Below are positions 10,021-63,406 of a DNA stretch of 64,000 bases, in pieces. The notes beneath the pieces were generated by a model. That model did not search any database. It worked only from the letters and a program-made list of their open reading frames with translations, and was not told the DNA's origin. Source of the stretch: Heterotrichella gracilis (lineage: Eukaryota; Sar; Xanthophyceae; Tribonematales; Xanthonemataceae); the NCBI GenBank assembly GCA_032358255.1, contig JAULBX010030817.1:62001-126000 (forward strand). The letters run 5' to 3'. Every line of letters begins with the position of its first letter. Position 1 is the first letter of the stretch. The position numbers and the translations under genes were made by a program.

Positions 10021-12297
10021 TTAGAACAGCACGCCCCCCCCTGCCGCGGCCTTCTCCTTGTCGTACATCTCAAAGTACTGGTAGATGATGGTCACGGCCA
10101 GCAGGATGCCTGTGCCCGACCCAATGGCGCCCATGAAGTCAGCCACGATGGTGAGCGCGCCGATGCACATGCCACCAAAGGCGGCGGCGATGGGGATGTA
10201 GCGGTTGAGCTCCTTCTTGAGGGAGGACACGGTGTCGCGGTGACCCTGCGACAGAGGAGGAGGTGGCGGGTCAAAGGGGGGGACATGGAGGGCCATGGCA
10301 GCACGCGGCTGAAGCTGGAACATGGCCCTGCGTACGCAATCAATTGCATGCATTTCAAGGGGTGCAGGGGACACAGCATAATGACTGCCCATTGCAGTCA
10401 ACACCATGCGCTGTGGCTTCATTGCCAACCCACCTGCAAAAAGTACTGCTGCTCGCGCAGCTGCTTGGCAACGTCGTTGGCTGATGAGCCTGACACCTCG
10501 ATCCAGGTCTTGGAGAACAGCGCGCATGCGGAGAGCATGAAGGCCACGTAGATGATGGCGTGCAGCGGGTTGGCGGCAACCTCGGTGAGGCTGTGGGGGG
10601 GGGAGATGTAGTACACAAGGCCGCCAACGGGGTGCATCTGGCCAGAGTAGTCAAGCTCCTGTGGGGAAGGGGACATCAGGTCAGATAACCAGGCCTCACG
10701 TAATTCAGGTTGCGGTACCCAGGCCAAAAAACAGAGTGCATACCCCGCATGCAATGCAGGCTGCGCGCCCCATGCAGAGAAATAATGAAGCGCCTGATGC
10801 ATCAACCTGCCATCTTCTACGCCCCGTCCCCCCTCTCACCTGCCATCTGCCCAGCAGCTGCACCAGGAAGTTTGTGCTGTAGCGCTTGTAGAGCAGCTGG
10901 GAGATGAAGTACAGGTTGGACACCAGCGCGGACTGCAGCATGATGGGCATGTTGGAGGTGTAGAACAGCTTGATGGGGTAGTTGTGCTGCGCGCCGCGCT
11001 GGCGCTTGCTGCGCACAGGCAGGTCGACGCGGAAGCCCTGCAGGGGACACAGGGGCGGGCGTAGGTGGGAGGGGGCGATGGCCAGGAGGCACTGCGGGCC
11101 AGCGGTACCTGGTGGCCCAGGGGGCGCAGCCGCCGAAGCACACAACCCTGGTGGCGTGCCTCTAGACAACAGCAGATAGCATGTGACAACGCGGGTCACA
11201 CATCATGATGCCTTGCAAAGGAGCATGAGAATGTTCCTGAAGATTCTGTATGCATACTATTCAATGCAGTGCCCTGCCATATGGCGCGCAGCCCCTGCGG
11301 TGTTGTGCAAGTCCTGCACCTGCCCCCGCACCTGGAAGTAGATGACCACCAGGAAGATGACCACGGTGGACAGCAGGTTGGTGATGTTGGGGAGGTTCTC
11401 CCGGAAGAAGGCCTCCTTCAGCGCGCGGACCTTGTCGTTGCGGGAGATGAGCAAGTGGACCAGCGCGATGAGTGCGCCCTCAAACTCAGCACCGCGTGCG
11501 CCGCTGACTGTGTATGGGCTGAAGGCCTTCCAGATGATGCTCTCGCAGATGTTGGTGGCAATGAACAGGGAGATACCAGAGCCCAAGCCGTAACCCTTTT
11601 GTAGCAGCTCATCAAGGCAGATGACGATGATGCCAGCAATCAGTAGCTGCAAGTTGTGGCACATCATGTCATAACAATGTCCAAACAGCATAATTCCAAC
11701 CAAAAGATGCAGGCAAGACAGAAGATACCACAATGACCTACCTGAACGATGATGAGGCAGGCGTTCATGGCTCCCAGTTCGCGGACATCGCCGTACATGC
11801 CTGACACCACGTAGGCCACTGCCTCTCCAATGGTGATCAGGACCCCGAGCAATTTTTGGGCACCCGCCCTGCGCAATAACACAGGTACACAGTCAACGTC
11901 TGCAGGCACATCAATTAGTAGAGATGATACGGTTGGCGAGGGGAACAGCCACTCACAGGAGCTCCCGATCCGCTTTGACACTGTTGTCAATGTCAATAAT
12001 CTTGGACCCCGCCAGGAGCTGCATCACCAGCCCAGATGTGACGATGGGCCCAATGCCAAGCTCCATACAGGTCCCTCTGTTGGAAGCCATAATCACACGC
12101 GCCCAGTAGAAGGGATCGGCTCCCTGATTCGTCTGGATCCCATACAGGGGCAGCTGCGAGCAGACCAAGAAAATGAACAGTGCCACAGCAGTGTAGATTG
12201 CCTTTTCCCTGAAAGAAACCTTCCTTTCTGCTTGTTGCACATCGGGAAGGACCGATAAGAACGGTTTTACGAGGTTCAACGGCCGAAACCCGCTCAT
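10021..12297 (-). CDS. SEC61A: Sec61 alpha, core subunit of the ER protein-conducting channel
   Basis: Sec61 alpha is the ten-helix pore of the ER translocon, working with Sec61 beta and gamma and with docked ribosomes. Six exons on the minus strand (12297-11957, 11868-11742, 11646-11332, 11037-10840, 10658-10434, 10245-10021) join to 476 residues, exactly the usual length. The N terminus [13 protein letters not shown] and the QLPLYGIQ plug-side segment are typical. Also typical are the [18 protein letters not shown] helix, the cytosolic loop [13 protein letters not shown] that contacts the ribosome, and the C-terminal [11 protein letters not shown]. All membrane segments are present and nothing is truncated. 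Its start faces the TRP-like gene 1.17 kb away. Confidence 0.97.
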
Positions 12298-19775: not shown

Positions 19776-22493
19776 TCAGTTCATGAAGCTTAGCCCCCCT
19801 GCGCTGCGCGCCCCCCCATGCTGCCCCCGCAGGTCAGCCAGGCCAGAGCCAGGCCCAAGGGGGAAGTAGCGAGCCGACTGCAGAAAAAGGGGGAGGCAAT
19901 GTCAGGGGGCGCCACACAGTGACAGGGCAGGACTCGCAGTTGGAATGTTCAGATATTGCAGGCCCATGATAGCTGCGGAGTGGGGATGAGTGGGACATCA
20001 ACTTCGAAATTCATCCCAGCGCAGGGTTTGACGTTCCAGGAGAGGTGCAAACAGCAGTGCCCGCACATGTATGATGTGCCAGGGGCTGCATGCACCCCAT
20101 CGCCAAAGGCGAGCACCTGTTAGGGCATACGCCTTCCCCCACAGCCATGTGCGCGCAGGCACTCCCTCTGTCCCCAAACCTACACCACCACCTACCTCCG
20201 TCTTCTCCTTGTCGTGCGCCGCAAAGCCCGTCCCCCCCCGTTGCAGCTCGATGACCCCCCCCTCCTTGATGCGCACCCCGTTGAACACCCCCTCGGGCTT
20301 GATCAGCTTGCGGTACGTCTCCTCTAGCACAACGTCGCCTGTGCAGAAGGGTATGTCACGCAAATTGGGCTTGGCGTGTGGGGTATGGCACACACAGCAA
20401 GCACATTGGGTGGGCCAGGCACTGCGCCATGATCAGCCCAGTACACATGCACAAAGCAGGTAATGGCCTTACGCTGCAGCACCCCACACAGCACCCCGAT
20501 GCCACCAGCACAGCGGCTCTCCCCTAACGAAGCACCACCATTGCTGTTCATCCACCCATACACACCCACATATCTCCTTCCCCACCCCCTGCGGCCCCAA
20601 TGGCACTCCTCCACCCCACCCACCGTCCCCCCGTCTCCCCACCTGTGGCCTTGAGGCACAGCAGCTTGCTGGAGTTCTTGAAGGTGTCGGTCGTGAGCGG
20701 GTCCATGTAGCGGTTATTGCTGCCGCCATCGACATCCCCCGGCACCGGCGTCAGCTTGACCCCGACCAGGTCCTTCATCCTCAGCTTCTTGCCAGAGGCG
20801 GGGCAGGTGGTGTCGGAGGGCGGCCGCGGCAGCAGGATGCGGCTTTCGGGGGTCTGGGAGGGAACCCAGAAGGCGCGCAGCTCCTGGGGTGGGTGGTGGG
20901 AAAAAGGAATATTTGGGGCCATGTGCAAGGCGTTTGGAAGGGTTGAGATGGGATCCAACCGGCGCGCTCTGGGAGAAGATAAACCAAGCTTAACCTTGAC
21001 ACCCTAAGGAGATGTTCTTTTGGTTGTATCGAGGGGCAGGCCCTTTGCTATGTATACATTAGCAAATTGCAGTTCAATGGTTTTTGAACTTTCATGCATG
21101 CGTTGGCCTGTGTCGAAGTGATATTGCATTGTGTGTAGGGTCCATTCCTCCTGCACGTATTGACACCCAACCACCCACCTTTGCCTTGTCCGCGTTCTCC
21201 TGTATATTGTACACGCTTGTCACCACGCGCTTGTCAGCCTGGGCAGCCTGGGCCTCACTGGCAAGGGCAGCCTGCAGCGCACCCGCGGTGGCGTCGCTTG
21301 CGCCCATGTGGTTCTGGCGGTCAAAGGCCAGCAGGGAGGCCTCGTGCTGCACATCAGCCAGCTCTGCGGCCTGCAATGGGGAGGCGTGGGAGGGTTTTCA
21401 CCAGGGTTTTGCGGGTCCTGTGGTGGACACCAGGTGCACACCAGCCAGCCCTGCCAACCTAGCAAGGGGTTTGGTGACGAGTCCATGCAGAGCGTGTGGG
21501 CATGTGGGCGCATGCACTGCTTCCCCGCACTGGTCCCGTGGTCCAATGCTGCACAGCTGCACCACACAGCCATAAGGCGTGAGCCACATCCAACCGCCCC
21601 ACCCCACCTTCCTCTGCAGCTCCTGCTGCTGCGCCTCCCACGCCGCCAGCTTCCTCTTATTTGCCTTCTTCTGAGCCACCAGGTTCTCAAGGATGGCCTC
21701 GCGTGAGAACAGGTGGCCCTCGGGGCAGCACACCGGGTCCTGTGGAGGGAGGGAAGACGATGGGGCTCAACGGCGGGCTAGTGCATGAGGGTGGGATAAA
21801 TGCCGTCGCAGCGGCATGCCGAGTATGCGCTGGATAGGATGAGGGTGCAGGAACATGGGTGCAGTGCATGTATGCCGGGACCATGCGTCCAATGCAACTC
21901 GTGGACCCACGTGCTGGGTCAGTAGCAGTATGTGGGTGCCTGCCATATGCGTAGGGTTTTGCCAGGGTTTTCGTACCACCACTGGCTGCAGCGTTAGGCA
22001 GCAGTCATCGAAGTTGCCTGTGGAGTCCTGCGCCACACACACAGGCAGGTGGGCAGGGAGGGGGGTAGCAGTGGCAGGTGGCCAGTGTGCGGTGCCTCGT
22101 CGCCCCACCTCGCCACCAACAGGAGGCCCTCCATGCAGCCATGCGCCAGGTGGGTATAAGTTGGCTCCCACTGGCGGGTCCCACTGGAGCTTCCAGGGTT
22201 GTAAAATACTACATTAAATGGGTCGGCGCAGTCACAAACCATTAACAAAAGGCTTGTAAAATATCTAAATTAATTGGGCCGGCGCAGTCATAAACCATGA
22301 ACAAAAGGCGCATGCGCCCTGCCCTGCGCCTCGGTGCATGCATGAGCACATGTATGTGCCCTACCCATCACGGCCCACCCACCTTCCCCAGCCGCTCCTT
22401 TGCAGTACCGTGGCCCAGCGCGCGTCTCTCCGCATAGGTCAGCGCCTCCACCCCCATGGTCCCGGCATTCTTGCTGTGGCGCTGGCCACCCAT
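19776..22493 (-). CDS. NOSIP: NOSIP / CSU1-type U-box E3 ubiquitin ligase
   Basis: NOSIP proteins are nuclear E3 ubiquitin ligases with a split U-box; the plant member CSU1 targets COP1/SPA. Seven exons on the minus strand (22493-22383, 22027-21977, 21739-21608, 21370-21179, 20883-20643, 20338-20196, 19877-19776) give 323 residues, close to the usual 300-310. The N terminus MGGQRHSKNAGTMG and FDDCCLTLQPVVDPVCCPEG are the zinc-nosip signature. REAILENLVAQKKANKRKLAAWE is the following helix. The second U-box half is CPASGKKLRMKDLVGVKLTPV, and the conserved end contains ARYFPLGPGSGLADL. The exon 2 donor could be three bases earlier, which would change only one valine. The antisense small orphan gene begins 1.05 kb upstream. 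Confidence 0.9.
22199..22309. repeat. Two-copy 55-bp tandem repeat in NOSIP intron 1
   Basis: Two adjoining units, 22199-22253 and 22254-22309, both start TTGTAAAATA and end AACAAAAGGC, with GGCGCAGTCA in the middle. They differ at a few positions and by one base in length. The repeat is inside the first intron and is AT-richer than its surroundings. Confidence 0.85.
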
Positions 22494-46600: not shown

Positions 46601-49600
46601 TGGCACAGCGGGACACGCAGGCTGGGGCAAGAGAACGGGAGCAGGAGGAGGTGGGGCTCTGAAGTGGGGGGCCTCGCATGGGGCTGGGGCGCTGATGCTT
46701 CTTGGCAGGGGCATGTTTTTCTTGATTGCATGCATGCCAGCATCTTAGCCAGAGTAGCAACATCCCTTTGCAGGATTTGCACCACTAGAACGAAGTTGCC
46801 GCTTCTGGAAGTCTTGGTTTTAAAGGGGGCATATCAGACGCTGGTGTTTGCCATGCTCCCTCGTAAGTGTGGTGTGACATGCTTGTGGCATGCCTGACCC
46901 ACTGCCACATGGCACGTGCAGGAGATCCTCCAGCTGCGCGGCCAGTTGGAGCGGTCAGCGGCACAGTGCGCGGCACAGCACGGAGAGGCGCAGGCTGCGC
47001 AGGAGGCGATGGCGCACGCGCAGGCGCAGGCGGCCCAGGCTTGGGATCAGGCGTCGCGGCTGAGTGGCGAGGTGGCTGCGCTCAGGGAGCAGCTGGCAAT
47101 GGCGGCAGGTAGGGTACAGGGGCCAGTATGTAGCTGCGGTTGTGAAGTCAGGAGTGCATGACATGGATGCATGTCACTGCCACTGTAGCCCTGCACCAGG
47201 GCCAGCCTTGCATGCAGTATCACGCCGGCGCTGCAGCCACATGCATGTATGCTCTCGCGGTAATGAGGTCATCCCTAGACAGCATATCAACTTCCCCCCC
47301 GGCCCTGCCCCTGCACCCCCAGGCCCTGACCAGATCGCCGCTGCCCGCGAGCGCATGGCGCAGCTTGAGCGGGAGGTGTCTGTGGTGAAAGAGTACGCTT
47401 ACGCCAAGGATGCTGAGCTGGCGCAGTCGCAGGACACGGTACAGCTGCTGCAGGCCAAGCTGGGCCAGCTGTCAGCGGCTGTGCAGGCTGCGCAGGGTGG
47501 TGCGTCTGAGTCTGATGCCCAGCGTGAGGCCATGCAGGGGCAGCTGGTGCGGCTGAGTGAGCAGCTGGCGGTGGCGCAGGCGGCGGCGGAGCAGGTGGGC
47601 GGGGTGCTTGCGGGATAGTATGTGTGGTGCAGGGTTTCAGAGTTTAGGGTTTAGGGGTTTAGGGTTTAGGGTTAGTGTGTCATGTGGTCCCCATGTGGAG
47701 TGTGGTATGTGGCCAGGGCCCTGGCATGGCATGGCAACCCTCACCCGGTGCCAGGCCACCGCCTGTTCTGCTGCTTGCACACTAGCATGCTCTGTGGATT
47801 TTGAATTGTGAATGTACACACCATGATTCGATGGCGCTCTCCTTACTCCCCAGCTCCCACCTCTGGAGCACGACCTGAAGCGCGCCCGCAAGCGCTGCGA
47901 GCTGGCTGAGTCGCGTGCGCATGAGCGCCAGGCCGAGTGCGATGAGCTGCGTGCGCGTCTGGGTGTGTCTGGTCAGCGCATCAGCCTGGCTGAGAAGGAG
48001 CTGGAGCAGTCCCAGGCAATGATAGCGGAGCTCACCGAGGAGCTGAGGTGGGGGAGGGGGGAGGGGGGAGGGGGCAGCGGGGTGTTAAGAGTGTTCACTT
48101 TTATCTGCTTTCCTTGTGTGAGAGGGGGCAATCTGTTGCCCGGAAGTAGGGGGTGTGGGTGGGGACGATGGATCCCTGGGGCCTGCGGTGCTTGCTGGTG
48201 GGTTGGGGGGGAGGGCGGGTGCACGGCTACCTTCCACGAAGCACTCACATCCCTACCCACTACCTTGCAGGAAGGCTGCCAGTCCCTCCCCTGGCCGCGG
48301 CCCGCCCTCCCCCTTGCCCAAGTCTTTCAACCCCCGCCGCATCATAGAGCTTGAGGCGGCGCTGGCGCACGCGGAGGGGGAGGCGTGCACTCTGAACGGG
48401 AGGCTCAGGGAGGTGGAAGCAGGTAGGTGGGGGAATGGGGAAGGGAGGGGGGGTTGGTGCGTGTCTGCATGGGGTGTGCTGCCCTGGAGTTGCTCAGGGG
48501 CACACACTGCAAGGGCCACATGACCACATGTGTACACCATGATGGCACCATGTGCGCCCATGGCAAACTGAAGATCAGCGCCAGGTTTGGTAGAGCACTG
48601 TGCATGCACCACCAGCTTACCACCTCACCCCCCCACCCTGGCATCAGCCCCACCCACCCATAGTCACCCTGGCATATCCCCCACCTGCAGAGTGCGCTTC
48701 GGCCCAGCAGGAGGCCGCCGGCCTTGCCGACCAGCTGCAGGCACGTGGGGGGCACGTGGCGGGTGGGGGCGGTGCGGCACTGGAGGGTGCTGAGGGGGGT
48801 GCCTCGCTGTCTACCGACCAGCTCAACCGGCTGCAGGAGTCTGAGGCGCAGGTGCAGGTGCTGCAGCGCCAGGTGGGGGAAAAGTATGCTGTGGCGCCCA
48901 CTAGCTGGGTATTGTCATTGGGCATGTCAAATTTCAGATAAGATTTTGTTTTTTACTATGAAAAAAAGAAAAGAAGTGAGTGTTGTGGGCAGGGGGGGCT
49001 GCATGGTCCTGCGCCACTAGGGGTCTGCCAGCACCCACTGTTCACCCCATACCACACCGCTGCCCCATGGCATCCCACCACCTCAACCCCTCGCACGCCC
49101 TGCTCTGCCGTGCTGGGTGGCTAATGCGCCCCCTCCCTTGGCCCCCTCCCAGGTCCATGAATGGCAGGAGAAGCTCAAGGTCGCTGTGAAGAAGGGCAAG
49201 TCCATTGAGCGAGCCAAGCAGCGCCTTGAGGAGGCCATGCGCAGCCAGGCAGAGCAGCTGGAGAGGGCGATGGCGCAGGCGGAGCAGGGGCAGGCCGCCG
49301 GGGAGCGGGCAATGGAGCAGCAGGTGAGAGGGGAACCGGATCAGGCCATGGAATGAAGGTGGTGCTGGTTGTGTAGCACATCTTGTTCCATGTGTTGACG
49401 GGGTAGTTTCGGTAGTTCAATTGGAGCTGTTAACATGCCCATGGTGCTGGACATGGCCCATGTCATATGGGTAAGCCACCCATGTGACCACATGTGTTGG
49501 CAGGGTCCATGGCAACATCTGTTGGCTGCAGTCCTGGGTCCCAGCGGCTGTATGGCATATACACTCACACTCACATTCGCCATATTCAATGCCCTCGCCC

Positions 49601-52600
49601 CTTCCTTTCAGGTGTCTGGGCTCCAGACTCGGCTGTCTGAAGCCCACGCCAGCATTGAGCAGCTGGGCGCTGCGCTGGAGGCAAAGGGGGTGCAGCTGAA
49701 TGCGGCACAAGGGGAGATGGAGGAGCTGCGGCAGGCGGTGGAGGGGCTGGAGGCACAGGTGGGGCGCTGTATGTGGCTGTGGGGTGGGGTGGAACCTCGC
49801 CACCTGTAATCCTCTTCAAAGTGCAATGTTGATTTTCAGCAATTGTCTGCCATGTGCTATGGCAGGTTTTTGCACAGTTGAAATTTAGTAAATTCAGTCA
49901 TGCACCCTACCACTTCTGGGGTGATAGACCATGATATATCCTACCCTTTACCCTGCTATTACCCTGAACACCCCTCTGCAGGTGCGTGAGGCTCAGGCGC
50001 ACGCTGACGACAGCGCAGCAGCGACGGCGGCCGAGCAGCAGCGGGCAGAGCAGTCGGCAGGGCAGGTGGAGGGGTTGCAGCGCGCAGTGAAGGAGGCACA
50101 GGAGGCGGCAACGGTGCGTTCATAGCTGCACAGTGGGTCCAACGCTGCATCCTCTGGCAACAAATATGCCACAGGTTCAGATCAAACCTATAATGCACAC
50201 TGTAGGGTGCAGGGTTCATGAATTGAAGTTGACCATCACCTCCTGGATTGCAGGCAAGCGAGGCAGCCCAGCGCACCGCAGACTCGCATGCAGAGGCACT
50301 GCGCGCTCGGGTGGCGCAGCTGGAGGGCGAGCTGGCGCATGCGCAGCAGCGGGCAGACGCGCTGGCCTCAAGCACCACGTCCGAGCTGCGGCAGCAGCTG
50401 CAGGGTGCGCATGCCGAGTGCGGTGAGCTACGTCAACAGGTGCTTGCCCTACGGGCGGAGCATAGCAACGTGGTGGCGCAGGCCATGACCGAGCTGCGCG
50501 CCAAGGACGGGGAGGTGGCGTCGCTCAAGATGGCGGTGCAGCAGGCGGGGAGCGCGGCGGAGGCGGCTTCAAGGGAGCATGCTGCGGGGCTGGCGGCGCT
50601 GGCGGCGCGACTCGGGGGCGTGGAGGGTGGGGTGACAGTGGAGGTGTTGGGTCGGCGTATGGCTGCGGTGCATGCTGAGACGGCGGCCAGGGGCGAGGAG
50701 CTGCGGGGGGCAAGGGAGCAGGTGGCGGCGCTGGGGGCAGAGCTGGAGCGCCAGCAGGTCGGTGGGGGATGGAATCCTTGCATGTTGCTGGAAATCCTGC
50801 ACAGTGATGGTTGCTTGAGCACACTGGAGGTCACAATCCATCCCAATGGTTCTTTGGTCGACGAATGCTGCATGTCATTGTTTGTTTCCTGCCCTGCGAT
50901 GCCCACACCCTCTGCATATCGAGAGAGGGAGGCTGAAATGTGTGTGAAGTGCGCATGGGTAGCAAGTAGTGTGTGTTGCCCCCCTGCAGGCAGTGGAGGG
51001 TGACAACGTGCAGCTGCAGCGCCAGGTGGCGGACAACCGTGCAGCCACAGAGGCATCATCAACCGCCCTGCGGGCGGCCCAGGCCCAGGCCGAGTCACAG
51101 GCTGCGCGGGTGCGGGAGCTTGAGGAGCGGGTGCGGGATCTGAGCTCCGACTATGAAGCAGTGCGCCAGGCATTGGAGTCACTGGAGGATGCCGAGTCGG
51201 AGGCAGCCGCTGCGCATGGTGTGCTTCAGGCCCAGCTGGGCGATATGCACCTGGAGAAGATCGGGCTGCAGGCGGAGTGGAACGAGCTGCAGGTGGGGTT
51301 GGTGTGCTGGAGGAACAGGGGGTATCATTCCTTCTGGTGGTGCATTTTGTGAGCTTTTGCCTGCACACCATGGTCGGCGCAGTGGCGGTGAGGTGTGCTG
51401 GTGTAGACTGACCACATACGCCTGGCTGGCGTGGCATGTGTGGGAACTGCTGTGATTGGGGTACAACTGTGATCTGTACATGGCAGACATGGCTGGCGTG
51501 CATGGACCACACATGCGTGCTCCTGGCTGATGCGGCATGTGGTGCGGTGTGTTCAGGACCAGGTCACCTCACTGCAGCGGGAGGTGGAGGCAGCTGGTGA
51601 GCAGGCGCGGGAAAACCACCAGGCAGCCGCGCAGCACCTGGCCAAGGCAGAGCAGCTTGAGACGCAGCTGGAGGCGGTGACCGCCGACCTGGCTGCGGCG
51701 AGGGAGTTGGCTGCTGCTGCTGAAGCTCGTGCGGAGGGCCTGGCTCAGGAGCTGGCGGGTGTGCAGCAATTGCTGCAGGAGGCAGAGGGCAGAGTGGGCG
51801 AAGCGCAGGCCAGGGCCGAAGAGCTGGAGCGGACCCTTGTAGCTAGCGAGGCGCAGCTGCAGGAGATGACAGCACAGCTGGGGGCAGCAAGGGAGGCTGC
51901 GACGGCGGCTGAAGCACGCGGTGGTGAGGCGCAGGGGCGCGCAGATGCAGCTTTGGAGGAGCTGGCATCAGTGCAACTAGCGCTGCGGGAGGCGCAGGGG
52001 GTGGTGGAGGCCACCAGAGCACAGCTGGCAGAAGCCCGGGAGACGACCGCTGCTGCGGAGGCGGTGGTGGCTGAACTGCATGCGTCACGGGATGCACTGG
52101 TGGCGCAGCTTGATGAGGCCAGGGAGGCTGGTGCTGCTGCCGAGGCGCTGGCGGCAGCACAGCAGGTGGCGCTGGACCAGCAGCAGCAGGCACTGGAGGC
52201 TGTCACGCAGCAGCTGGATGCGGCGGAAGCAGCTGGTGCGGCGGCTGGGGAAGCTGCTGTGCAGCATGAGGCGGCCATGGCGGGTGTGCAGCAGGCACTG
52301 GAGGCAGCCAATGTGGAGCTGGCAGCTTGCAAGGCGGCCCTTGATGCAGCTGAGGCGCTAGCAGCAGAGCGCCAGGCAGGCTTGGATGAGGTGCATGGCC
52401 AGGTGGAGGCACTGCACATGGAGCTGGATGCAGCCAAGCAAGCAGCGGCGGACGCCACCGACCTCGCCGCGCAGCGCCAGGCCACCATCGACACCTTGGC
52501 TGCTGACCTGGCCGCATCCCGCCAAGGGGGCGCGTCCTCCGAGGAGCACGTTGCTGAGCTGGATGCATGCCTGGACGCCCTTGGTGCTGAGCTGGCGGCG

Positions 52601-55600
52601 GCACGCGAGGCGGCCGCTGCAGCTCAAGCACAGTCAGCATCGCACCTGGCCACCATCCAGGACCTCCAGCAGGCCGCTGAAGCCCATTCAGGGCAGCTGG
52701 CAGAGGCGCGTGAGGCTGCAGCGGCTGCACAGGCGCTGGCAGCGGCGCATGAGGCAACAATGGGCGAGCTCCAGCGGGAGTGTGATGCTGCCGCTGCACG
52801 GGTAGCTGATGCGCACCAGCAGGCAGAAGCTGCGCAGACCCTTGCAGAGGAGCATGCATCCACCATCAGCCAGCTGCGGCAGGCATTGGAGCACAGCCAC
52901 GCTGAGCTGGCGGCAGCGCAGCAGTCTGCGGCGGCGGCAATCGCGCTGGCGGAGCGACACGCGGGCACCATTGCCGATCTGGTGCAAGGCGTGGACACCA
53001 ACAGCGCTGACCTGACTGCTGCTGAGGCAACAGCTGCTGAGCTGCGCCTTGCAGTGGACGCTACAGGGGCTGAGCTGGCACAGGCGCGGGAGGATGCTGC
53101 GGCGGCAGAGGCGCGCGCCGCACAACATGCGGCGACCACGGAAGAGCTGCAGCGCGTGGTGGATGCCCTCCAAGCGGAGGCAGCGGCCACACATGAGGCT
53201 GCAGCAGTGCTGGAAGCGCATGTGGCAGAACTTGAGGCCACCCTTGCAGAGCGGGAACATGCTATTGGTGCGGGGGCTGCGGAGCTTGCTGCTGCACAGG
53301 CGGCTGCTACCGCTGGAGGCACTCGTGCGGAAGAGCTCCAGGCTGCGCTGGATGCGGCTTCCCTGGCGGCACGTGAGGCTGCAGAGGCAGCTGAAGCGCG
53401 CGTCCATGCACTCCAAGAAGCCCACGAGGAGGGTTTGCGCCAGGAGAGGGAGGCTGCGCAGCGAGAACTCGGCGATCTCACTTCCCAGCATGAGGCTCTG
53501 GTTGCCAACCTGGCTGGGGCGCATGTTGAGCGGAATCAGCTGCAGGATGAGGTGCGGGCGCTGCAGGCGGGGGGCGCCGAGGCTGCCACCCACATGGCTC
53601 GGCTTGAGGCTGAGCTGGCGTCCACCGGGCAAGAGCTGGCAATCCAGGTGGGGGACAGGGAAGCATATGCATGGCACCATGGGGGTCCAACTCTAGGAGA
53701 GTGGCTTCATAGGAAATAGCTGTAAAGTTTTTGTTTATTTTGCAGAGTAACAGGATTTAAACCTGCGACTTTCCAGCGTGGAGGGGGAGTGGGGCACCTT
53801 GGGCATCCCTGCTGGCAGCAATGGTTCAGTGATTCGCACTTGCGTTGAGCCTGTCCATGTGCATGCCCTGTCCCGCGTGATCGTTCGGCACAGGGGAAGC
53901 CATCGCGCTGCGGCATGTGATATGCTGGGCCTGATTTGACGCCACGCCGCTGGTGCCGCTGTGCAGGTGCGTGCCCTTGAGGAGCGCAGTGCCCTGCTCC
54001 AAGCTGCCCACCGGGACCTTGAGCAGCTGAGGGGCCAGCAGGAGATGCTGCAGGTGGGAAGCGCAATTGTCTGCCATCTGTCACACATGTGCTGGTAGAT
54101 CATGCGCCTCGCGTACATGCATCAGCTATGTAGAGCGCCAATCGAGCAGGACTTCTACCATGCACTTGCGCTGCATGGCAAGTGGTGTATGGTGGGGGTG
54201 TGCACATGGTTGTTGTGTGTGTGACCCATCGCTGTGCGCTGTGCATCTCATCAATAATCATCCAGTAGCTAGCCCTCATCCAGCCCAATCCCAAGCATGT
54301 GGCCGCTGATTAGATGGCTGGTGCCCCTTTCCTCTGCCCAGGCCCTTGCCGCCAGCCGCGTGTCGGAAGCCGATGCAGCGCATGCCATGGGGGATCAGCT
54401 GCAGGCACTGGAAGAGCAGCTGGAGGAGCAGCGCCAGGTGGCGGCTGATGGCGCTGCTGAGGTGGCGTCCCTCCAGTTGCAGCTTGCCTCCCTGCAGCTG
54501 GAGCTGGATGCACAGCGCCAGGAGGCATTCAAGGTTGCTGACCTGCAAGCTGAGGTGGCAGCCCTGCAGGCTGAGCTGGATGCGCAGCGCCAGGTGGCAG
54601 CTGATGGCGCTGCTGAGGTGGCATCCCTGCAGGCGCAGCTGTCTGAGGCAGTGGGTGCGGCTGAGCACGCCACCGCCAAGCTGCGCGGCGCTGTGAAGAA
54701 GGGGCGCGCGCTTGAGCGCCAGGTGGCACTGCTGGAGGGGCAGCTGGAGGGGGCCAAGGGAGTGGCAGGGGTACGGACTAGGCAGGGGAGGTGGGGGGTT
54801 GCTGCGTGGGAAAATCCCTCACCTCTTTGCGGGTTCTGCACTTGCCTCATTTTTGTTTATGACTTTTCATCAGGAATCATGCTTATTCCCAGTTTTGTCA
54901 CTGTGGTTGGCAAAACAAATCAGGTGGAATCGTTGTTGCATGTGGTACGCTCCCGCTGATCATGGCGTGCAATGGGAAAGCTGGTTCGCCCCTCTCACGG
55001 CCTCTCCTCCTTCTCCAGGTGCGCAATGGCGGGTCTGATGGTGAGCATGACGCCGGCAGCGCTGCAGGCCACTCGCCTCGCGCAGGATCCTCCCAGGGGG
55101 ACAGCGTTGAGCACGTGGGCCAAGTGGGGCATGGGACCCAGGTGAGGGGGGGTATTGGTTGTCATCAGTGTATTCTCTCCGCTAATTTAGCTGTACTGCT
55201 GGATCGCATTGTAGGTAAGTGTATGTTCTCTGTGACATCGGGTATGATGTTAAGCTCGATAGCTCAATGGTGAGGAGTCATGCCCATGTGTATGTACCCC
55301 TCACGTGCTTGTGACAGTAAACACTATGTCTGGGGCTGCAATGACTGTTGGTGCGCCCTTTTGCATCATGCGCAGGCTGAGTTGAGTGAGCTGGCATCCA
55401 CGCGGTCTGAGCTGACAGCAACCCGGCAGGCACTGGAGGATGCGCAGCGCCAGCTGGCAGATGCACATGTGCTGGTGCAGGTGTCTCCTGCCCCCTCCCC
55501 ATCCAAGGTACAGCTCCCGCCATTGCACCCTCTCCTGTCATGCATTTACAGTGAGGGAGGGTGGAATCCATGTGGTAGGAGCTAACCTGGAAGTGAGCTG

Positions 55601-58600
55601 GAGTGGTAAAAGTGTGCTGTTGTGTAATTGAGGACCTGTGTGGTGTGGTGATCGGGGGTTCAAAAATACACGGTTCGGCGATGTGGTGGCTATTTTCACC
55701 AGCACACATCTACCCAAGGGGCTGCTAATTATAAAGAACGATTTGCCAGCCAGACTTTCATGGCATTGCATTTGGCAGTGCTGTGCATACTCCACCGCCA
55801 CCATCTACGTCCATATGCAGGCCACCACCACGGAGGCCGATGGCGGTGAGTCTGTGGACAAGCTGCGGTCACGCCTGCAGGCTGCTGTGCGCAAGGGTCG
55901 AGCCATGGAGGCGCAGAGGGCAGCGCTGGAGGAGGAGGCGGTGGGGGTGGCGGGGGCGGTGCACGCGCTGTGCTCGCTGATGGGCACAGGGGGTGCGCAG
56001 GGAGAAGGTGGGTGGGGCGGGGGCAAGGGGTTTCATGCGCACCATTATCTGCCTAAATCACCTTCGCCCCCTGCAGATGCCCTGTAACTGTAACCAAAGC
56101 AATTCTGTTGCCACGCTAGGTTGCTTGCTCGCACCATCTAGATGTGGTCATGGGGAGTAGTAACATAAACATGTAGGATGGTCAGTCAGCCAACATAATT
56201 TGTATGGAACAAGTGTTTGCCACCCTCCCCCATAGCATTGACGGTACTCACCTCCCCCTTGCCCAGGCGTCCACCCCGAGGTGCTTGCCCTGCTGACACC
56301 TGGCGCAGCCCCACCCAAGGCCGCGTTGCAACACTGCCAGGAGGCACTGCGCGCTGCCGAGGCGCTGTGGCGCGGCCGGTCAGGGGCGTGGGCGCAGCAG
56401 CTGGAGGCCACCAGGCAGGAGGCGGGGGCGCAGGCGCATGGCGCTCAGGCGGCTGCGGATGAGCAGCGCAGGGCGGCGGAGGGGCTGCAGGGGGAGCTGG
56501 AGGCAGCTCGGGAACAGGTTCGTGTGTGGGATGGGTCTGCGCCTTACCTACTTAGCACTTGCGCAGTTGTTTGGGTTGGGTAATGTGGCAGTGTCTCCTA
56601 AACTCCTCTCCAGCCGCGATCTCTGTATCTCATGCATGTGACGCCTGAGGATGTGTCCACTGGTGTGCTCTGCACGTCACTGTCTGCTCTGCCCTGTCTT
56701 CCCTATGATCAACATTGTTCATGGCGCAGGTGGCACTGCTGGCGCACCAACTAGCCGAGGCTCGGGAGGCTGCGCACCAGGCCGATGCCATGGCCACGGT
56801 GCGGGACGCGCAGCGGGTGGCGGCCGAGGAGCGGTTTGGCGCTTTGCGGCAGGCGGCTGAGGCTGCGCAGGCCCAGGTGGCGGGGCTGCAGCGCCAGGTG
56901 GCGCAGGCGCAGGAGGCAGCGGAGCGATTTGAAAGCGATGCTATTGGTACGTGAGGAGGGGGGGGACCACGCCCGTACATTGGGCCACTTGCAAGTACTC
57001 CTTATAATTTTGGTTGCATGTTCTTTCTGGCAGTTTGGTATCCTGCCGGCTCTGCCTGATGCACTGCAGTGTGCTTCACCTGCTTGACATGCCTGTGCAC
57101 TCCTGCCATATATGATACCATCTCCTCATGGCCCTATACCCACCTCTTAATTAAGCGTAATCCTGACCCCAACCAACCCACCCTCGCAGGCAGCCACATG
57201 CTTGTTGAGCAGCTGGAGGAGTCGCTGTCATCCTCCCGCCGCGAGGTTGAGTCCATGCGGCGGGGGGCGGGGGCAGCGGCGGAGCTGGTTGCGGGGCTGA
57301 GGGGGCGCGTGGCTGAGCTTGAGCGCCAGCTGGCACACCCTGGGCACCAGGAGGAGGTGGTGGCGCTGCGGCAACAGGTGGGTACGGGTGGGTGGTGTGG
57401 GGGAACAGCATTACCAGCGGCACGACCCAGCGGGAGTGGTGCTGTCCGGCATGCAGCGCCTCCCTGCAGTGCAGGAGGGCCTATACTGTCATGTGCACCC
57501 TGCAACATGTGGCTAGCGCCTCAGCATATGGCTGCTGCACCATTCAGGGTTTTGCCTGGCACCTGTCTGTCAAAGTAAGTAAGGAAGTATTTTGCTTTCC
57601 AGCTTTGAAGCCAGGTCTGTCTGTCAAAGGCCATTTGATAAAATGCATCTTACTATGGACACGCATTTACGGGCAGACGCAATTGCACAAGTGACCCTTG
57701 GCCCACCCACTCCCCACCGCAGCTGCGTGAGGCTGAGGATGCGCGCGCACATGCTGCTGAGGAGGATGCATCAGCCATGCGCACCCGGGTGGCGCAGCTG
57801 CAGGTAGGGGACGTCATGGACAGGAGGCCAGTGCCCTTCTCTTTGCTACCTCCACGTCTTCTCATGACAACACATTGCCACAAGGACAGGCCATGTGGTA
57901 GACTTTTCCTTTATTTCCATTTTCACTCTTTTCAATTATTGTAGTATTACAGGGTTACAATGGTATAATTATTTTGATGTTTTTTAATATTTAGTAGGAA
58001 TTTAAATACTATTTATCTTTGTTTCTGCAGGGCGACCTGGCTGAGGCACGCGGTGAGGCTGAGGCGGCGTGTGAGCGCACAACGGCCCTGGCCAGGGAGG
58101 TGGCGGCGGCTGAGGAGCGGAGGGGGGGGCTGCAGCGGCGATGCGACGCTGCGGAGTTTGAGTTGGCTGAGGCGGCGCGGGAGGCTGCACGGCTGGAGGG
58201 CGAGCTGGCGCTGGTGCAGGTGCGTGGGGGACCAGGGGCCTAGCTGGGGCGGTGCCTGGCGGCAGGGCTGGCATGTGGGTGGCTGCGTGAGCAGAGGTCA
58301 CACGTCCCCGCAGAAATATGTGGCACCTACTGGTCTTGAACCAGTCAGAATGCAGGATTGAATGTTGTCATGGAGACTTGGTTGCTGCCGGTCCAGTGTA
58401 CAGCGGCCATGCGTCAGATACCCCGCCTCTCTCACCCACCCACTCCACCCCGCAACAGGCTGCCTCCACCCAGCGCGAGGAGGACCTACTGGCACAGCTG
58501 GAGGAGGTGGAGCGGGAGGCGGCCAGGCTGAAAGCGCGCGCAGACATGCAGCGGGAGGGCTCAGCGCCTGCCCCTGTCCCTGGTGCCGTTGACCCCTCTG

Positions 58601-60472
58601 TGCTTGAGGCCGACGCGGAGCTGGTGGGTGATGTGCTGGCGGATGTGGTGGAGGCGGCGTGCCAGGTGGTGGGGCGGCAGGCATCGGAGGGGCAAGAGGA
58701 GGAGGTGGGTGACGGAGGGGCAAGAGGAGGAGGAGGTTGCTGCATTATTTAAGTAAATTATTTCTTTTTAAAGAAATGATAATATGCATTATAAAAAAAT
58801 TGTAACTAAAAGAAAACGCAGGGATGGCATATCATGAGAGATTATCACAGCGGTGCTGCTGCATGCGCTGCATCATCCCCCTGCTCTGCGTGTGCTCATG
58901 CTGTCGAATGGTGCCTCATGCCTCATGCATTGTGGGTGCAGGCTGGTGTGGAGTCAAGCCTGCTTCGCACGCCTGCCCTGCACGAGGTGCTGTCGCGTGC
59001 GCTGGCCCTGCGTGGCCTGGTACTGGGCCTGCGGGAGGCGGGGGCGGCGCAGCAGCAGGCAATGGAGGCGGTGGCGGACCAGGCGGCGGCGCTGGCCAAG
59101 GTGGGGGGTGGGGAAACAGTGCAGAGGGATGGCTGTGGGTGACTGGTTGGGATTGAGTGCATGGGCAAGGCGTACCGTATTGGTAGCATTGGTCGCGCTG
59201 GGGGTCCTGCTCGTAGTGGTAGTGGTATCGCTGCATGGCAACCAATCTACCTTGGGCAAGTGCCTATTTGTGGTGCGGTGGCTTATCCAATTCGCATGTT
59301 CAATCTCTGACCTTGCACCCACCGTCTCATGGTACGATGTCTTCACTGCTTTGACTCCATGTGGCAAATTACCACCACGTGGTAGGGTGAATTATAGTTG
59401 CACATTGCTGCTCCATCCCAGCACCCCTTTGTTCCAGCAAAGGGCACGCCTCGTGGCGCCACAGCACATGGTTTCATTACCAGGGTAGGTAGCACCACAG
59501 CACTTGCCTGTGCAGAGCCATTACCCCACGGCTCTTGTCTCACCCCCACCTGGGCCCCTGTGCAGGCTGAGCGGCGCCTGGCTGACAGCGCTGCGGAGCG
59601 TGACGCATTGGCTGCACAGCTGGCGGGGGTGCAGGCGCAGGTGGAGCGGCTGCAGCACCAGGCGGCCCAGGCGCCTGCGGTGGTGTCGGTGCATGGGGAG
59701 GCCGCGGGTTATGCTGTGACCGGGGGCCTGCTGCGCAGCGGTGCGGTGGCTGCGACAAGCTCTGCGGTGGACCAACAGGTGGGACAAGCAGGGGCCAGGC
59801 GTGCGCGGGTGCGGTAGCAATTGCAGAAAGGTCGTCCATAGACATGCTTTATGTGGTGAAGTAAAACCGTCTCAATACAAGATAGTTGACTTGAGCAAAA
59901 CAAAAAATTAATGGGTTGTGTGTTTTTTGCCAATTCTTGCGGTGCTGGGAGCCCACAATTGTGTTTGTTGCGTGCAATTACACCAAGTATGGTATCCACA
60001 TCACCCATGGGCATCCTCCACATCAATTCGAAAGTGCATCAGTCCTTCCTGGGCCCCACTCTCCACCCTGGCCCTGGCTGTATCGCGCTCCCCTCCCGCG
60101 TGCCATGGCGCTGTGCCTGCTCCCCCCCCCCCAACCCACCCACCCACATCCCCCACCCCCCCACTCCAGGGCCTGGCGGAGCTCAAGCGGCGCGACCTGC
60201 CTGAGGGCGATGTGGTGCTGAGCCTGCCGCTGGACCCAGACTCAGAGGACGATGACCGGGGGGGGCGCATACCCGCTGACTTTAGGCCGCTCACCACGCT
60301 CACCTGTGTGGCTGGGGCCACCGACCCGCGCGTGCGGTCCGCTGCGCTCACCGCTGACCGCTTCACAATGGCGCTGGATCGGTACCTGCGCACGCAGCCC
60401 GGGGCGCGGCTGGTTGCGGGCACCTACACTGTGCTGATGCATGTGCTGCTGCTGGCTGCCTTGGCCACATAG
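43621..60472 (+). CDS. GOLGA5: Giant golgin-84-like coiled-coil tether of the Golgi
   Basis: Golgin-84 type proteins are C-terminally anchored Golgi tethers that capture vesicles. Thirty-three exons splice with fully consistent phases to about 2,696 residues; human and plant golgin-84 have roughly 700. Main exons: 43621-43665, 44065-44136, 44337-44382, 44691-44868, 45140-45242, 45483-45725, 46037-46160, 46511-46650, 46922-47108, 47323-47594, 47854-48047, 48271-48422, 48691-48872, 49153-49323, 49612-49758, 49982-50113, 50254-50757, 50990-51292, 51557-53647, 53967-54053, 54342-54770, 55019-55141, 55376-55507, 55821-56007, 56267-56517, 56730-56946, 57190-57377, 57723-57803, 58031-58219, 58459-58704, 58942-59100, 59566-59778, 60170-60472. 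Almost the whole chain is Ala/Glu/Gln/Leu coiled coil. The last exon carries DRFTMALDRYLRTQPGAR (2659-2676) and a final membrane helix (2677-2696). Tyr2682 and His2687 are five apart as in TM-golgins, which identifies the family. The basic N terminus (LEQFKKKKRAAE) resembles other golgins. Exon 3-5 and exon 23 junctions are the least sure. Confidence 0.8.
47642..47676 (+). repeat. Interstitial telomere-like repeat (TTTAGGG)
   Basis: About four and a half units of TTTAGGG, one with an extra G, lie in the intron between golgin exons 10 and 11. This is the plant/Chlorella telomere unit, not the TTTTAGGG unit of Chlamydomonas. Confidence 0.8.
51698..53398 (+). repeat. Coding array of 35-residue (105-bp) heptad modules in golgin exon 19
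   Basis: Within the 697-codon exon the protein repeats every 35 residues, which is five heptads. Modules start with AREA-like sequence and carry LA..H.ATI..LQ in the middle. Four modules (52118-52537) plus a 21-residue spacer (52538-52600) make a 161-residue unit. A second unit of exactly the same make-up follows (52601-53083), then three more 35-residue modules (53084-53398). The two spacers are alike, both containing GAELA. The segment 51698-52117 is also 140 residues long and built from pieces that are multiples of seven. Confidence 0.9.
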
Positions 60473-61640: not shown

Positions 61641-63406
61641 ATGTCGTCCCTTGCAGCCGCCCGGGCCGATAACTTCTACTTCCCGCCGGAGTGGGACCCA
61701 TCCAAGGGAGGCCTCAACAAGGTATCAGCCATATGCATGCATATAGGTGTTTGCTCACCTTGTGGTTGCCTTTGTTGCGGACTGTGCGTGCGCGCATATT
61801 GTTGCGTTACTATTTCTTTAGGCTCCCAAACTTCTCTATTACATTGCTGGCTCCAATGCCAAACATCCATTGCAATGCCTGTACCATGCACGTGAACTAC
61901 CATATCCAACCCGCCCATTCTCCTACTGTCCACCTGACAGCAACCTGTCGTGCCTGCAGTTCCATGGCCAGCATGCGCTGCGCGAGCGCGCCAAGAAAAT
62001 TGACCAGGGCATCCTGGTTATCAGATTCGAAATGCCCTTCAATGTGTGGTGCTCGGGGTGCGGCCACCTGATAGGCAAGGGCGTGCGCTTCAACGCAGAG
62101 AAGAAGCAGATCGGGAACTACCACTCCACCAAGATATGGTCCTTTGGCATGAAGGCGCCCTGCTGCGGGCAGCGCATCGAGGTGCACACAGACCCAAAGA
62201 ACACCGAGTATGTGGTGGCGGAGGGGGCAAAGCGGAAGGTGAGGCAGTGCACAGCGCCGGAACACTCCTCTCACACTGCACATGGCACGCAAAATTCTGC
62301 ATTGAGTGGTCCATGCCCGCAACTATGCATGTTTGTTCATCCATGCCAGCATGACTTGAGCGGCATGGGCATGCCCGCATGGCGCCGGTCCACCCCAGCA
62401 CCCTCTGCCAGGTCGGGGCACACACTAGTTGTTACTGTCTACTTTACACACGGAAACCCACTCACCTTGGAGTGTCACCTCTGCACAGCAGCAGCGCCAC
62501 CACCCGCGCACTGACACACACACACCCCGTTCCCCACGCCCTCAGACCCAGACCTGGCAGGCCGCCTCCGCCGAGACCCTGGAGCTCCCCGACCCAGCTG
62601 AGCGCCAGGCCATGGTGGACGACCCCTTGGCAGCGCTGGAGCACAACGTGGAGGACAGACGTGCAGCGGTGGCCAGGCGCACCGAGTTTGAGGCGCTGCG
62701 CGAGGACAGCGCCGCCAAGCACAAGGATGACTACACGCTGAACAAGGCGCTGCGCAGGAGGCTGAGGTGGATGTTGATAATCCCAATCGCCACACTCTCT
62801 TCACCCTACTGCCCTATTTGTGCCCCCCTTTAAAGGTGTCATGCCCTCCCAGAAGCCATGGCACGCAGGATGGCACCATTGCTCCACTTTGGGGAGTGGG
62901 GGTGAGCATACATGCATGCGTGTGATGGAGCTGGGGAGGGGTGGTGGCGCCGTATGCAGCACGCATGGATGACATTGATGGAACATGTACTGGGGAAGGA
63001 TGTGGGGTACTGCCCGCCACCCCGTGCTGGCGCCTGACGGCGTGCTGTTGCGACACGCAGGGCTGTGCGCAAGGACGAGTCGCAGCGTGAGGAGCGGCGG
63101 CGGGAGCTGGGCCTTGCTGACCACGTGGCGCTGCTGCCGCATGCAAAGGGCGATGCCGCAGTGGCCGCGCTCATGCCCTACGGCGACCCCAAGGCCTTTG
63201 ATCGCAACTGGCGCCACAGGCGTAGGGAGATTGCGGCGCAGTCCATCTTTGACACGCCGGCGGCCGCCCGGGGGAAGGGGGTCAAGCGTTGCGCGCCTGG
63301 GTCTGATGGCAAGGCGGGGAGTGTGCAGGTCAAGGCGGCGCTGCTGGCCAAGCGGCGGCGATTGGATCCGGGTGTGAAGCTTGGGGTGGGGCTGGGGGGA
63401 AAGTAG
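61641..63406 (+). CDS. YJU2B: YJU2B/CCDC130, Yju2-family (CWC16) splicing protein
   Basis: Yju2/CWC16 proteins join the spliceosome around branching and are nuclear. Four exons (61641-61721, 61960-62238, 62546-62766, 63061-63406) give 308 residues. The start MSSLAAARADNFYFPPEW is the family hallmark. The conserved core continues with FHGQHALRERAKKIDQGILV, the CxxC pair in NVWCSGCGHLIGKGVRFNAE, and a CC pair in KAPCCGQRIEVHTDPKN, together a zinc-binding fold. NYHSTKIWSF is typical too. The C-terminal half is charged and helical, ending in a basic tail (AKRRRLDPGVKL). It is of the CCDC130 rather than CCDC94 branch, judged from the N terminus. Confidence 0.95.

Follow-up and report, generated by a model that had tools for sequence, protein, structure and literature searches.

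A register-keeping array of 35-residue heptad modules in one long exon of a putative golgin-type gene of Heterotrichella gracilis

A coiled-coil gene with one very long exon

We analyzed a 64,000-nucleotide window from the xanthophyte alga Heterotrichella gracilis (contig JAULBX010030817.1, positions 62,001 to 126,000 of the forward strand; coordinates below are those of the window). On the plus strand, between 43621 and 60472, lies a gene that we model as 33 exons encoding a long coiled-coil protein of 2,681 residues with a hydrophobic C-terminal tail. The model rests on genomic sequence, with exon edges chosen by eye and an inferred start codon, and it is consistent: the joined exons form a single open frame from ATG to TAG without an inner stop, 32 of 32 introns read GT..CAG, and 24 of these 32 are in phase 0. 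For exon 23, an alternative in-frame donor is possible, by eye, 27 nt downstream. Exon 19 (51557 to 53647, plus strand, 697 residues, phase 0 at both ends) carries the repeat, an array of 35-residue coiled-coil modules interrupted by 21-residue spacers. An earlier note, made by a model from the letters of this DNA, had remarked that this exon far exceeds its neighbors, and it does: exon 19 is 2091 nt long, against a median of 182 nt for the 33 exons and 504 nt for the second longest. The array takes up 1134 of the 2091 nt, so exon 19 minus the array would remain the longest exon. In a COILS-type scan with a reconstructed weight table, 80% of model residues and 97% of those in exon 19 scored at least 1.3. 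Lysine is scarce in exon 19 (3 of 697 residues, with 38 arginines and 232 alanines); the remainder of the protein has 44 lysines in 1984 residues. A telomere-like heptamer run (AGGGTTT, 5.9 copies, 47631-47673) lies in the intron that separates exons 10 and 11.

Anatomy, register, and core layers of the array

Self-comparison of exon 19 at the protein and the DNA level, which the earlier note had set as the test of its repeat, placed the predicted periods in the top two ranks on both levels. Lags of 35 and 161 residues were the strongest of 335 tested, each reached by 0 of 2000 shuffles that preserve the residues of each heptad position, and lags of 105 and 483 bp were the top two of 1297. We then scored the exon, leave-one-out, with a profile of nine modules. 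The best parse spans 52055-53188 and reads spacer plus four modules, spacer plus four modules, and spacer plus one module, all on the plus strand. Spacer S0 (52055-52117) precedes modules M1 to M4 (52118-52537; starts at 52118, 52223, 52328, and 52433), S1 (52538-52600) precedes M5 to M8 (52601-53020; starts at 52601, 52706, 52811, and 52916), and S2 (53021-53083) precedes M9 (53084-53188; 26.6 bits leave-one-out), which opens a third unit. Every module has 35 residues and every spacer 21; modules follow one another at 35 residues six times and at 56 residues twice, all multiples of seven. Together, lag tests and parse bear out the predicted organization of four modules per group, a fixed spacer, a 161-residue step, and a third unit just started. 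The array is narrower than the 51698-53398 first proposed: the lag-35 signal has a Z of 7.13 inside it, and the exon flanks are without such a signal (Z of -0.57 before and 0.11 after).

Not all modules are equally clear. Five of the nine score above 21.7 bits, the 95% point of the maxima of 200 shuffles; M2, M3, M4, and M8 score 14.9-19.0 bits, under that point. A decayed tenth module may follow at 53189, a site that is not among the places scoring at least 8 bits. The three spacers resemble one another, with BLOSUM scores of 37, 39, and 45, although at unrelated lags 0.4-1.4% of the pairs taken in register score that high. We also considered the spacer as a truncated module equivalent to residues 15-35 of the full one. 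Among 35 offsets against the module, 14 scores best (mean score 18.1), and there only 1-2 of 222 other exon windows reach the spacer scores; at their own best offsets, these 222 windows average 16.5 (maximum 39.9), and the case is not made.

A single heptad phase runs from exon residue 21 to about 588 (51617 to about 53320) in the COILS-type scan. Twelve departures of 1-8 windows occur within this stretch, with best scores of 0.86-1.38, and each reverts to the same phase. The phase then changes downstream of the array, at approximately 53320-53400 on the plus strand. Hence, the array keeps its register, which shifts downstream of it; the continuity claimed in the earlier note holds for the array itself and fails just past it, inside that note's wider coordinates. 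With lengths in multiples of seven and the register held, the array has the features of an in-frame tandem coiled-coil repeat. A single-sequence AlphaFold2 model of 52055-53104 predicts two helices (residues 2-158 and 163-349; mean predicted local distance difference test score, pLDDT, 91.9). The predicted break lies at a QGGASS stretch on the M4/S1 border (52523-52540, plus strand), of which 52529-52540 is modeled as non-helical.

The constant phase defines ten core layers per module, and these follow a consensus that the earlier note did not contain: Ala-Ala-Ala-Ala-polar (mostly His)-Ile-Leu-Leu-x-Leu. The core strings of M1 to M5 are, in order, AGAAQLQLVL, AGAAHMVLAL, CLAARLVVLL, AAAARILLSG, and AAASHILAHL, and those of M6 to M9 are AAAAHMLCAV, AAAAHILLSL, AAAAHILVNL, and AAAAHTLVLA. 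Alanine occupies 31 of the 36 core positions in the module heads, and the d position after the alanine head is polar in 9/9 modules and a histidine in 6/9. For comparison, 14 of 81 d positions overall are polar, as are 3 of 72 core positions outside the modules. Because the core columns were selected after inspection, the hypergeometric P values of 7.7e-9 (polar), 6.8e-6 (His), and 1.8e-12 (Ala) are descriptive. Each module has a presumably soft half, four alanine layers plus a buried polar layer, and a firm half of mostly Ile/Leu/Val/Met layers. Coiled coils rise 0.1485 nm per residue, which gives 5.2 nm for a module, 23.9 nm for a unit, 56.1 nm for the array, and 103.5 nm for the exon.

Age and origin of the modules

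The earlier note took the length of the exon to suggest growth by in-frame unequal exchange. We compared the share of identical residues that also use the same codon with its expectation. At lag 35, this share is 0.370 versus 0.376 expected (184 pairs); for adjacent modules, 0.407 of 113 pairs versus 0.366 (P 0.19); and between units 1 and 2, 0.450 (60 pairs) versus 0.403 (P 0.25). When the whole exon is taken, lag 161 gives a borderline value (0.455 versus 0.387 expected in 145 pairs, attained in 28 of 500 shuffles). Third-position agreement between the two units is 0.391 versus 0.315 by composition, an excess partly attributable to the shared residues themselves. The longest exact repeat in exon 19 has 18 bp (spacing 105), and one 16-mer recurs at spacing 525. 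The DNA-level similarity expected of recent unequal exchange was not found: Tandem Repeats Finder (TRF) reported no array of module or unit periods, there is no significant codon excess, and exact repeats end at 18 bp. Since synonymous sites keep no significant residual similarity, recent unequal exchange is unsupported. In-frame tandem duplication is the likeliest origin of the modules. The duplications, if such they are, look old, and we would not expect copy-number differences between strains.

Could like residues have arisen without duplication? A structural demand for one soft/firm alternation per five heptads might have selected them in an Ala-, Glu-, and Leu-rich coil. Such convergence would account for shared codons without significant excess at lag 35 or between adjacent modules, and much of the regularity does reside in the core pattern. 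But the identity between M6 and M9 (21 of 35 residues) exceeds what ten core positions can account for, M5 and M6 start with the same ten residues, the 18-bp exact repeat lies at the module spacing of 105, and the lags survive shuffles that preserve heptad positions. We consider convergence rather improbable.

In-frame duplication, then, is the origin that we favor, and the question becomes which unit was copied. Had the four-module unit doubled once, each module should be closest to its own counterpart. Matching modules in counterpart order ranks second of 24 permutations, both by protein (183 versus a mean of 161.5) and by DNA (218 versus 207.5), and the modules of block 2 and M9 resemble one another (up to 21/35) more than block 1 resembles block 2. 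The 161-residue step is seen, and its origin as one duplication event is only weakly indicated. To us these results suggest repeated 35-residue events that left the spacers in place; they do not prove a single 161-residue event.

Candidate identity and role of the protein

The last exon (60170-60472, plus strand) encodes the hydrophobic tail. By hydropathy, the highest 19-residue window of the protein is at the extreme C terminus (residues 2662-2680, mean 2.01). This exon shows weak likeness to two golgin families. Its residues 52-96 match the final part of Pfam Golgin_A5 (positions 251-295 of 305; E 1.9e-4, 21.6 bits, under the cut-off of 31.7), the family of golgin-84/GOLGA5, and a weaker alignment covers the end of CASP_C (positions 208-245 of 252; E 0.18, 11.5 bits, under the cut-off of 28). 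Neither family profile thus matches the last exon above its curated cut-off. The architecture, a long coiled coil plus a hydrophobic C-terminal segment, resembles that of golgin-84, giantin, and CASP. These three are described as golgins held by C-terminal transmembrane domains (PMC4707255), and a review lists golgin-84 and CASP as present in plants and giantin as absent (PMC9274083).

Other comparisons gave few leads. Protein searches with the whole model, exon 19, and the last exon returned nothing at E <= 0.001 among the best 7986, the best 7996 (both by most shared words), and 52 candidates, respectively. Exon 19 has no PDB relative at E <= 0.01 and no match in its own genome except itself (11 candidates scored); the last exon has two weak PDB matches (E 0.42 and 0.5). 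Megablast gave no phage match. Pfam matches such as those to GAS, HAUS1, and ADIP were below cut-off, were judged typical of coiled coils, and were not used. No 35-residue array is known to us from golgin-84, giantin, or CASP, whose sequences were not part of the comparison. Basic motifs KLKVAVKKGKSIE, KLRGAVKKGRALE, and RLQAAVRKGRAME in exons 14, 21, and 24 (within 49153-49323, 54342-54770, and 55821-56007) may resemble a motif of TNO1-type plant proteins, a tentative lead. TNO1, the plant trans-Golgi network (TGN)-localized SYP41-interacting protein, is presented as a large coiled-coil TGN protein of the green lineage and a putative tether (PMC4642138, PMC9274083).

Elsewhere in the window, an exon of a neighboring gene at 61822-62514 codes for a member of the Saf4/Yju2 family (Pfam E 1e-42), open frames on the minus strand at 10021-11892 resemble, by eye, exons of a putative Sec61-type translocon subunit, and 22195-22309 holds 2.1 copies of a 56-bp tandem repeat with 88% matches. 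Across the genome, 43 matches at the level of exons were obtained to the chlorophyll a/b-binding family (E <= 0.001), and one of these exons has its best PDB alignments with CP26 entries; taken by themselves, such matches would suggest a green-algal host.

On balance, we favor the reading that exon 19 is part of a long, probably parallel dimeric rod with a jointed array, in a C-terminally membrane-anchored algal golgin-type tether. In-frame copying of a five-heptad module, and the arraying of such modules by fours with a 21-residue spacer, would have left the heptad register unbroken. As each module would combine a soft half, with its four alanine layers and mostly histidine polar layer, and a firm half, the array would behave like a rod that can bend at joints 5.2 nm apart. 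Evenly spaced joints may help a long tether to flex and to bring captured vesicles to the membrane. Golgins are described as extending from Golgi membranes as coiled coils, and tethering by GCC185 as needing flexibility (PMC4721967); alanine clusters are counted among the flexibility-giving features of tropomyosin (PMC11626781). A more specific version, in which four alanine layers and one buried histidine form an elastic joint, grouped in fours with a fixed spacer, and module copy number sets the bendability, perhaps the pH sensitivity, of the 56-nm stretch, we regard as very doubtful.

Two other roles deserve weighing. Exon 19 might be a passive spacer whose length alone counts, with the repeats as a by-product of duplication; according to a review, vertebrate giantin coils are conserved in their length and not in their sequence, and coils of this kind are molecular spacers (PMC5082667). 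Yet the polar layer is kept in 9/9 modules and alanine at 31/36 head core positions despite chance-level codon agreement, which suggests selection on more than length, and we hold this role to be somewhat unlikely. The modules might instead be equivalent sites, set in a row, at which Rab GTPases, SNAREs, or the cytoskeleton dock, giving multivalent binding along the rod rather than mechanical joints. Rab binding has been reported along the length of golgins (PMC5082667, PMC4721967), and regular spacing fits repeated sites, but the most regular feature that we found is the buried core; docking seems to us unlikely.

The array has partial parallels. Tropomyosin also has alanine runs in core layers that are tied to flexibility (PMC11626781); it is, however, an actin-binding rod, whereas exon 19 has a 35-residue tandem module in which alanines precede a polar, mostly histidine, layer. 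Chicken BG cytoplasmic tails are coiled coils whose heptad number is described as varying among genes and haplotypes (PMC5938342), with heptads mostly on separate 21-nt exons, whereas exon 19 packs many heptads into one. Plasmodium vivax MSP3 gamma is reported to have imperfect DNA repeats and abundant heptads (PMC7335089); in that account its phase shifts are of every kind and tandem amino-acid repeats are absent, whereas the array has one register, and we suggest no kinship. A literature search for 35-residue heptad duplications gave no match, and among the matches listed by related searches we found just the analogs cited here, which is not a claim that such arrays are unpublished; the examined passages of PMC4350178 hold nothing on duplications.

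The array would be an unusually orderly case of a known growth route of long rod proteins. Golgin coils are described as rods with many short breaks (PMC5082667, PMC4707255). A strict 35-residue soft/firm alternation, retained at chance-level codon agreement, lends itself naturally to testing two ideas: that regular core layers encode golgin flexibility, and that rods grow by register-keeping modules.
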